From contig NC_088304.1 of assembly GCF_032854445.1 (NCBI RefSeq), positions 19,851,704 to 19,915,703 on the forward strand: DNA of 64,000 bases. The letters are read 5' to 3'. Source of the DNA: Liolophura sinensis. Taxonomy: Eukaryota > Mollusca > Polyplacophora > Chitonida > Chitonidae. Below are positions 4,907 to 7,900 of the stretch, piece after piece. Positions within the stretch are counted from its first letter, which is position 1. Every line of letters begins with the position of its first letter. A model generated the notes under the pieces. It saw nothing but the letters and a program-made list of their open reading frames with translations, searched no databases and was not told the DNA's origin. Position numbers and translations under genes: made by a program.

Positions 4907-7900
4907 TCAGTCCAGGTGTGTGAGAAGGTTGGTAATCTCACGGTCACTCACATCATACCTCTGTGTTTTGCCCATAGCCTCAGACAACTTCACTGCTAAC
5001 ACATGCTTACACTGTGGAGGTGAAAAGCCAAAAATTACATTTCTGTCTCAAATATTTCAGAAAAATCAAGATACATATGTGCTGTTCATTAGATGGACTC
5101 ATGACGCAAAAAAAAAATATTCCTGTTACAATTGTGTTTATTTATTTATTCATTTGATTGGTGTTTTATGCCATACTCAAGAATATTTCACTTACACGAC
5201 GGTGGCCAGTATTATGGTGGGTGGAAACTGGGCAGAGCCCTGGGGGAAACCCACAACCATCCGCAGGTTGCTTGCAGACCTTCCCACATACGGCCAGAGA
5301 GGAAGCCAGCATGAGCTGGACTTGAACTCCCAGCCACCGCATAGGAAAGAGGCTCCTGGGTAATTACGCTGCTCTAGCGCTGACCAACTGAGCCACGCAG
5401 GCCCCCTGTTACAATTATATGTATATTGCCTAAAAAGAGCATGTCCCAAAAGGTAGGGGAATCACAGCTTACAATGGAAACTAGATTATGGTTGGAGGAA
5501 ACCAGATTGCACCGGGGTAAATAATGCATCCACCATGGGCAAGTTGCTGGGAAAGTTTCCCGCATGTGACATACAAATATGCACATCATAATGGCAGAAG
5601 ACTGATTGAACTGATCTTCAATGAATGAACGTTGCACTAGGCATATTGACATGCAAAGTGGAGCCATTTCAGTTCCAGAACATGTTTGGACTCTCAAAGT
5701 GCAGGCTAATGAACCTGTATTAAAACTCAAAAGAAACGTAAGTAAACTGAACACAAATGTGATAGTTTACTGATAAAAATTTATCATAGAAAGCTCTCAG
5801 AAAACATCAATTTCGAGTTCCATTTTATAAAATTTCTTTCATTCAAAATTTGCTGAAGAGTCAATTTTCCAATTTTTCTCATTGTGAATGTTGTCACAAT
5901 GAAGAAGTGGCAGGACTAAAAGCCTTCAACTTTTTTTTTTTCTAGACATGGCCCTGAAAATATGAATATTTTAAATGTTCTTATATTTCCATGTATCAAC
6001 ATGCATTTCCAACTTACCATTATGTGATCATTTTTCTTCAGTACTGACAAAGAACATGAAAGAGACAAAAACAAAGAAGTTACACAATAAATGGCTTGTC
6101 ACTGTCCACAATAGTCTGTGTTAGTCTAATAACTGATCATAACAGACTAAGCTAGTACTTGTACTGTTCAAAATTGCCCTACAAATACATACTGTAAATC
6201 TTCAACCTTTTCTACCTATAACTCACTTTTTTCAATGGAATTTGTGCATACAATTATTATCAAAATGATGCCAAAATGATTTGTTTGTGTCACAAATAAA
6301 GGTGCAAGCTTCATAAAACTGTGCAAATTATTTCTTTGCAACCCACAATTCTTGTTCAGTGGTAACAGTACAAAAGTTGTAACTGGTTACTTTGATAGCA
6401 CAGCTATCCTGTACACCGAGCCCGAATTAAACAGTGGGAGGCAATACTAGAAGTTATGTCCCTTGACCAAGATACGCACCATCTAGATTTTATTCAGGGG
6501 AGGATATAAGGATACAGCCCACATAATTTGGTCCAGGCCACAAATGAGGCCTGTTTCCCATTACTTATCCGTTTCAACTCCGAAACTCATTTCTTCACTT
6601 TACGTTTTTCATCAGGTGCATTTGGATTCTCTCCCTTGTAAAAGTCTTTTAACAGCTGTACAGCCTCCTCAGCGAATACACCTCGGACACACTGTAATGG
6701 TGGCCCCTGGTCCGGGATAACATCCGTGTCGACGTGTAAAACTGATCCGCAACCACCAAAACGCTCATTATTACAGCCGTACACCACCAAGGGGATGCCC
6801 AAGAGTCTCAGAGCTCCCGCGCACATGATGCACGGCTCAACCGTCACATACAGAGTCAAACGTGCAAAGACGTCCTCTTTCTTTCGTCCATTTTTCTCAC
6901 ACCACTTCATCACGTGATCAGCTGCCACCATCTCCGCATGTCTCGTCGCGTTTTTAGTTTCGTTCACTTCATTCCTTCCTTTAGCAATAATCGCTTCTTC
7001 AAAAACAAAGATACATCCTACTGGTACCTCCCCAGCTTCTAGAGCCTCGTGAGCTAAGTCTAGTGCTTTTCTCATCCAGTGAGAATGCCCCTCTGGAGCC
7101 TCACCTACCTGAGAACTTGAAGGCTGGACAGGCACAGTAGATGGAGGAGGGCAGGCAGACATAGGGAGTCCCTGAACTTCCCACAACCTACAACAAGATA
7201 TTCCTGAGGCACTTATGACTGTACGAGAGATTGCAGCTTTCTACTAACTGCCAGATTTTCAATATTCTCAATGTGCACGAATTTGCTTACATTTAGCTTT
7301 GATATTTCAGTTATGCAATATGACAAAACATAAAGATATGCATTTCAAACTTTATGCTGGATACTTTATTGATGCATGTGTGGTTTCGTGTGGTGTTTTA
7401 AACGACCTTTGTTTAAGAATAGCACTGATTACTGAAATAAAATCTATTCTGGCATTTGGCCCGACATTCTTGAAGTGATTATCCATCTTATAGTCAGAGT
7501 TGTAATTATGAAATCCTATTTTTGAGATAAACTTTCCACGTCTCTGACATCATTAATATGCATAACAAATCAGCAGCCAAACCTGCATAAGCTGCCCAAT
7601 TTACCTGGAACAAACAGCGTCCTGATGGAGAGACGAGACGTGTCACATGACTGTTGTCCACCAAGTCAAGGGCAGGTAATAACGGCGCTTGAAACACAAA
7701 GTTTAACCTGAAAGTGCAGATGTTAAATAATCGAAATTCAAATATGCATAGAAATTTTAAGTGTATAGAATACTACTGCCTGTGAAACAAAGTGTAACGT
7801 TCCAAATTCATGTTATTTTTTATTCTATTCTTATCAATAAATTAAGGCCCACTAATTTTTGAATGACCTTGAGAATTCACCACTAGGACAACTATTTTGA

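Follow-up and report, generated by a model that had tools for sequence, protein, structure and literature searches.

Within the cholinergic gene locus, the first intron of ChAT contains VAChT (SLC18A3), a one-exon coding gene; both genes are expressed from several promoters and through alternative splicing, and the excerpted account describes the arrangement as conserved in nematode, Drosophila and mammals (PMC3053374). CPNE1 and RBM12 share 5′ exons and yield different proteins from one start region; the same source, in the portion used here, puts forward more than 20 further human pairs as promoter-sharing candidates, and the ADAT3/SCAMP4 entry in its table carries no expression correlation (PMC2568002). 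KTI12 is nested in tandem within intron 2 of TXNDC12 and affects the splicing of its host, and the report on this pair, citing 53 tandem cases among 158 nested protein-coding genes in human, regards 31 of these as probably individual genes (PMC3192792). Dual-specific splice sites, at which AGGT serves as either a 5′ or a 3′ site, are described from human transcripts in the part of a further report used here (PMC10809524).

In the window, meaning the whole stretch of 64,000 nucleotides of Liolophura sinensis DNA that was analysed, ADAT2 and ZSWIM7 share a strand, ADAT2 being nested in a ZSWIM7 intron, and this nesting of two unrelated genes is real. Taken as a whole, the best explanation is a one-exon nested ADAT2 that would have originated as an mRNA copy and would be made from its own transcript, with translation starting at 7162 and the transcript ending after 6494. 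We give this full reading a probability of about 0.52.

ZSWIM7 and the ADAT2 frame within its fifth intron

ZSWIM7 is modelled with seven exons on the minus strand, from 12081 to 4907, encoding 142 aa with consistent phases. Its six introns are all GT-AG and measure 1934, 1511, 813, 417, 1065 and 1006 bases. The coordinates of exons 4 (7707-7605), 5 (7187-7109) and 6 (6043-6018) hold as implied by the original prediction, to which exons 1-3 and 7 have been added. The features of the locus are as follows.

12060..12081, minus strand: ZSWIM7 exon 1, with the start codon at 12081; joins in phase; donor CAG/GTAAAA
10054..10125, minus strand: ZSWIM7 exon 2
8521..8542, minus strand: ZSWIM7 exon 3, 22 nt
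7605..7707, minus strand: ZSWIM7 exon 4
7188..7604, minus strand: ZSWIM7 intron 4, its last part a candidate ADAT2 start region
7109..7187, minus strand: ZSWIM7 exon 5, open in the ADAT2 frame too, an overlap within chance
7108..7109, minus strand: AG/GTAGGT junction, donor score 10.5; acceptor score 7.8, in ADAT2 phase 0
6587..7162, minus strand: ADAT2 coding frame from ATG 7162 to stop, 191 aa, with the conserved core from about 7093
6489..6494, minus strand: AATAAA 3′ of ADAT2, from a scan of 6700-4500
6178..6360, no strand assigned: part of an interspersed repeat of high copy number, in the remainder of intron 5
6018..6043, minus strand: ZSWIM7 exon 6, 26 nt
4907..5011, minus strand: ZSWIM7 exon 7 with the stop codon

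A SWIM zinc finger is recognised in the ZSWIM7 model by Pfam (PF04434, 26.4 bits against a cut-off of 19.6), and the length of 142 aa fits a SWIM protein of about 140 aa. The name ZSWIM7 (SWS1) is given on a presumed similarity to the human protein, which is a DNA-repair factor. When the partial ZSWIM7 was compared with solved structures, no relative was obtained, only weak unrelated matches.

The ADAT2 frame extends from stop to stop over 7240-6587, and its conserved part is uninterrupted by any intron. Residues 50-212 of the query align with human ADAT2 without gaps, starting at about 7093. Among relatives of solved structure, human ADAT2 ranks first (231.9 bits), followed by mouse ADAT2 (230.1), yeast Tad2 (117.2) and bacterial TadA (at most 94.3); because ADAT2 proteins rank above TadA and other deaminases, the frame is assigned to ADAT2/Tad2. 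Identity over the core is 62% with human and mouse and 44% with yeast Tad2, and the zinc/catalytic columns H-A-E and P-C-x-x-C are invariant in all four sequences. The NCBIfam TadA model gave 99.1 bits, below its cut-off of 150. In general, ADAT2 supplies the catalytic half of the deaminase that converts A34 to I34 in tRNA, working as a heterodimer with ADAT3; the human protein likewise has 191 aa.

Both the conserved coding part and the poly(A) signal lie within ZSWIM7 intron 5 (7108-6044), and from the ADAT2 stop to exon 6 no AATAAA or ATTAAA occurs other than the AATAAA at 6494. The seven-exon model and the intact ADAT2 frame together bear out the same-strand nesting in intron 7108-6044 that had been proposed. 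ADAT2 would be a one-exon (or one-main-exon) gene in this intron, and the strong sites at either end suggest that the ZSWIM7 pre-mRNA would remove it by splicing 7108 to 6044. Its 5′ end may be in exon 5 or intron 4, rather than the whole unit being inside intron 5. Rfam (at the gathering threshold) and a tRNA scan of the whole window gave no hits.

A tandem array at 3937-4978 starts within the last exon of ZSWIM7; its unit is about 102 bases long and is repeated about 9.8 times. Downstream copies from 4884, 4769, 4667, 4368 and 4138 carry a frame like that of exon 7 (CKHVLAEAM...LD stop). None of these five has a preceding AG, so they look like exon repeats and were rejected as alternative exons. 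Head to head with ZSWIM7, on the plus strand, are coding-like exons at 12638-12870 and about 13765-13880, which we take to read like beta-ureidopropionase (UPB1). The first lies about 560-580 bases from the ZSWIM7 start codon, with a CpG-rich stretch between, and Pfam gave nothing significant for it. Farther away on the plus strand, an open frame of 549 aa at 44387-46036 presumably resembles the N-terminal part (ARM region) of SARM1; all of its Pfam matches are below the cut-offs. Short interspersed repeat copies occur at about 5150-5410, 8320-8480 and 9600-9800, their ends being by eye variants of AAACACCAATCAAATAAATAAATAAA, and we assume this short repeat to be one that is common in molluscs. 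Minisatellite arrays are found at 16768-17314 (25-base unit), 18484-20151 (49), 33902-34637 (43), 47631-48520 (43/90) and 51933-52635 (54), and some of the long arrays are open in several frames.

Start codon and transcript of ADAT2

Exon 5 (7187-7109) lies wholly within the ADAT2 open frame, which is not the frame that ZSWIM7 uses there, and it contains an ATG at 7162 in the ADAT2 frame; the protein predicted from this codon has 191 aa. The part played by chance was assessed with 100,000 synonymous recodings of exon 5 at local codon use. The ADAT2 frame was kept open in 74.5% of these, an in-frame ATG with no later stop was present in 50.0%, and both held in 37.2%. In a window-wide sample of 18,200 places, an ATG was found within about 35 codons upstream, before any stop, in 29.1%, and the frame was open for at least 43 codons upstream in 11.2%. 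As 37% of the recodings reproduce the overlap, the shared open frame alone is no evidence of dual coding, and selection on the overlap is unsupported. The sharing of DNA that had been claimed for exon 5 and ADAT2 thus stands in so far as the exon is inside the open frame; the overlap itself is within chance, and the start at 7162 is a candidate.

Shared coding DNA is consequently a weaker claim than nesting, and one that depends on the start at 7162. It is possible, because ADAT2 needs a start codon; the conserved ADAT2 sequence begins downstream of exon 5. The AUG at 7162 has a poor context (CCT ATG T). Translation of ADAT2 would begin there, within ZSWIM7 exon 5, to give the 191 aa protein. 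If this start is right, the two coding sequences overlap by 54 bases in different frames, and this probably follows from where the genes lie, not from selection.

ADAT2 would most likely be produced from its own transcript, starting just upstream of 7162 and ending after the AATAAA at 6494. The stretch 7291-7163, which is the end of intron 4 and the start of exon 5, is free of AUGs, and for any transcript that begins there the first AUG is the one at 7162. Intron 4 upstream of 7291 holds 11 AUGs; a start above 7291, from which up to 11 AUGs would be met first, therefore counts against the best explanation. An ADAT2 promoter within 7188-7604 had been suggested, and this fits better if it is confined to the last part of that interval. 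Base composition gives the promoter no support, for the CpG observed/expected ratio of intron 4 is 0.48, as depleted as the gene body, and that of exon 5 is 0, against 1.10 in the region upstream of ZSWIM7, with no promoter-like rise. Intron retention is less likely than a separate 5′ end for ADAT2, be it a start just upstream of 7162 or a 5′ exon spliced onto 7108. We prefer an own start site to a 5′ exon spliced to 7108, and the latter to retention of intron 5.

A 5′ exon of ADAT2, either its own or exon 1, 2 or 4 of ZSWIM7, might instead be spliced to the AG at 7109/7108. In ZSWIM7 the donor takes the GT of that AGGT, and the two mRNAs would be mutually exclusive there. We regard this reading as tentative and well short of an even chance, although as an account of the start it is nearly as good as an own start site, the AG at the end of exon 5 being a fair acceptor. 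On generic weight tables from general knowledge, which are not species-specific and give rough ranks only, the donor CAG/GTAGGT scores 10.5, the highest in ZSWIM7 and as strong as originally claimed, and the same junction scores 7.8 as an acceptor, placing it at the 98th percentile among the window's AGs. Five of the six acceptors in ZSWIM7 score 7.4-9.6, a range that includes this value, and exon 5's own acceptor scores only 3.5; sites used in both ways are known in human transcripts, as the portion of the source used here reports (PMC10809524). Joining exon 1, 2 or 4 to 7108 leads into the ADAT2 frame with a leader AUG, which in the exon 2 join has the context agaATGG; the exon 3 join has no AUG in that frame. 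However, an in-frame AUG in three of four joins is about what chance would give, and the exon 1 and exon 2 joins place the ZSWIM7 AUG first, opening another frame. Against the site itself, exon 5 ends in AG in 19.8% of its synonymous recodings, and 58% of these reach the acceptor score; the acceptor likeness is largely set by the ZSWIM7 protein, because its residues give a pyrimidine-rich exon end. No 5′ exon of ADAT2 was identified.

It is doubtful that the AG/GT at 7109/7108 serves both as the ZSWIM7 5′ site and as the ADAT2 3′ site, the 7162 start being an additional, dual-coding mode. If it did, each pre-mRNA of the locus would have to commit either to a DNA-repair factor or to the catalytic half of an essential tRNA-editing enzyme. 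Were a splice site or an exon shared, each gene would limit the evolution and expression of the other.

Less probable still, and in our view unlikely, is that a single ZSWIM7 pre-mRNA yields ADAT2 when intron 5 is kept and the transcript is cleaved after 6494. The common strand and the poly(A) signal within the intron are consistent with this, and with exon 4 also skipped translation from the ZSWIM7 AUG would continue in frame into ADAT2 for a total of 238 aa, although such an in-frame fusion is a one-in-three coincidence. With exon 4 included, the AUG at 7162 is only the sixth and falls within a 101-codon ZSWIM7 frame, so that efficient synthesis of ADAT2 by plain retention is unlikely. The splice choice of the original prediction, in which ADAT2 results simply from donor 7108 going unused, is for this reason unsupported. 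Retention is also disfavoured by the combination of the strongest donor (exon 5) with the strong exon 6 acceptor (9.6).

Translation could also begin at the next Met after 7162, at 7075, which is wholly inside intron 5. The coding part of ADAT2 would then be entirely intronic and would have no coding DNA in common with ZSWIM7. The deaminase profile still matches such a protein (88.5 vs 93.4 bits), and yeast Tad2 has a short N-terminus, with about five residues ahead of the aligned core. However, this start trims the core and, immediately ahead of Met 7075, drops a tryptophan that the human and mouse proteins also have, and transcripts beginning above 7162 reach the AUG at 7162 first. We consider it very unlikely.

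Copy number and history of ADAT2

Genome-wide searches covered the window's own genome of 609,464,459 bases in 632 contigs. The protein search with ADAT2 returned one match, the window copy (E up to 10, with all three first-look candidates scored), and thus no second ADAT2 was found elsewhere in the 609 Mb genome by this search; a complete second copy was what the original prediction had named as speaking against it. Nine matches to PF00383 were obtained across the genome, five of them over the cut-off, and only the window ADAT2 covers the profile from end to end in one frame. The eight remaining matches are partial and none is ADAT2-like, their resemblance to the window ADAT2 never exceeding 26 residues. 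Three of these (L089, L090 and L091) read to us like dCMP-deaminase-type exons, L090 having stops within its matched stretch, and another (L093) has a cytidine-deaminase-like stretch close by. The recovery of partial matches shows the profile to be able to pick up individual exons of deaminase genes divided by introns. None of the PF00383 matches could be read as ADAT3, though a divergent ADAT3 could escape this profile. A DNA search with 7187-6044 gave 42 matches, namely the window itself and 41 within the high-copy repeat at about 6360-6178; no other ADAT2 was seen outside the repeat among the 40 of 3215 candidates scored, which adds little. The same nesting was also sought in prokaryotic contigs, where the best 80 loci, drawn from 592 relatives, were all bacterial and uninformative, and in viral contigs, which had one and three deaminase loci, no ZSWIM7 match and no information on nesting. 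The sole source of ADAT2 found, an essential tRNA-editing subunit, is inside the intron of an unrelated repair gene.

The CpG observed/expected ratio is 0.34 in the ZSWIM7 exons, 0.28-0.55 in its introns and 0.45 over the window, against 1.10 in the ZSWIM7 upstream region and 0.90 in the ADAT2 stretch. When expectation was derived from synonymous recodings at the same GC3, ZSWIM7 had 8 CpGs vs 25.1 expected, ADAT2 25 vs 31.6, and the open frame at 44387-46036, taken as a third case from the window, 68 vs 95.6. ADAT2 is thus near its expected CpG content while ZSWIM7 is strongly depleted, which points to a different history or methylation state from the host. Either a later arrival or an own unmethylated unit would account for the difference.

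ADAT2 is known as a multi-exon gene in other animals. An mRNA copy most likely brought ADAT2 to this site, or removed its introns, and would then have replaced the old gene. The marks of retroposition that were looked for are absent, as no poly(A) remnant was seen in the sequence and no flanking direct repeat of at least 9 bases was found in 6000-7300, a search that old or short marks would escape. Repeat pairs of 12 and 9 bases were rejected as target-site duplications, since each has one copy within the ADAT2 frame; another pair is local and was likewise rejected. The protein search of the genome gave no second copy that could be a parent gene. With neither a duplication nor a poly(A) remnant, the one sign of retroposition is the absence of introns. 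That the window ADAT2 is an inactive retrocopy of a functional gene at another site would suit its uninterrupted frame, its nesting and its CpG content differing from that of the host, but we judge this highly improbable, given that the protein search found no other ADAT2 and that the frame and key residues are intact.

Comparison with known nested and exon-sharing genes

In the literature searched there was no account of ADAT2 with ZSWIM7, of an intronless ADAT2 or of ZSWIM7 with a nested gene. The ADAT2-in-ZSWIM7 pair looks new, and to this extent the original prediction, which knew of no description, is upheld; the kind of arrangement, however, is already known. As with VAChT and ChAT in the excerpted account, ADAT2 would be a one-exon coding gene in the intron of another gene. 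VAChT and ChAT products serve one pathway; unlike them, the products of ADAT2 and ZSWIM7 are unrelated, and the host intron is the fifth rather than the first.

As with KTI12 and TXNDC12, ADAT2 is a tandem protein-coding gene in a host intron, yet the portion of the KTI12 report used here makes no mention of a shared coding exon, such as exon 5 could be. In contrast to the sharing of 5′ UTR exons given for CPNE1 and RBM12 in the excerpt of that study, any exon shared here would be one that codes for host protein and is used in a second frame. At 7109/7108 the AGGT motif of the dual-specific sites described in the corresponding excerpt is present and scores in both directions, its use as an acceptor being a candidate. 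Even as a plain nested gene, ADAT2 in ZSWIM7 is a neat additional example of such arrangements. ADAT3, the partner of ADAT2, is itself a one-exon gene, and human ADAT3/SCAMP4 is a possible parallel.
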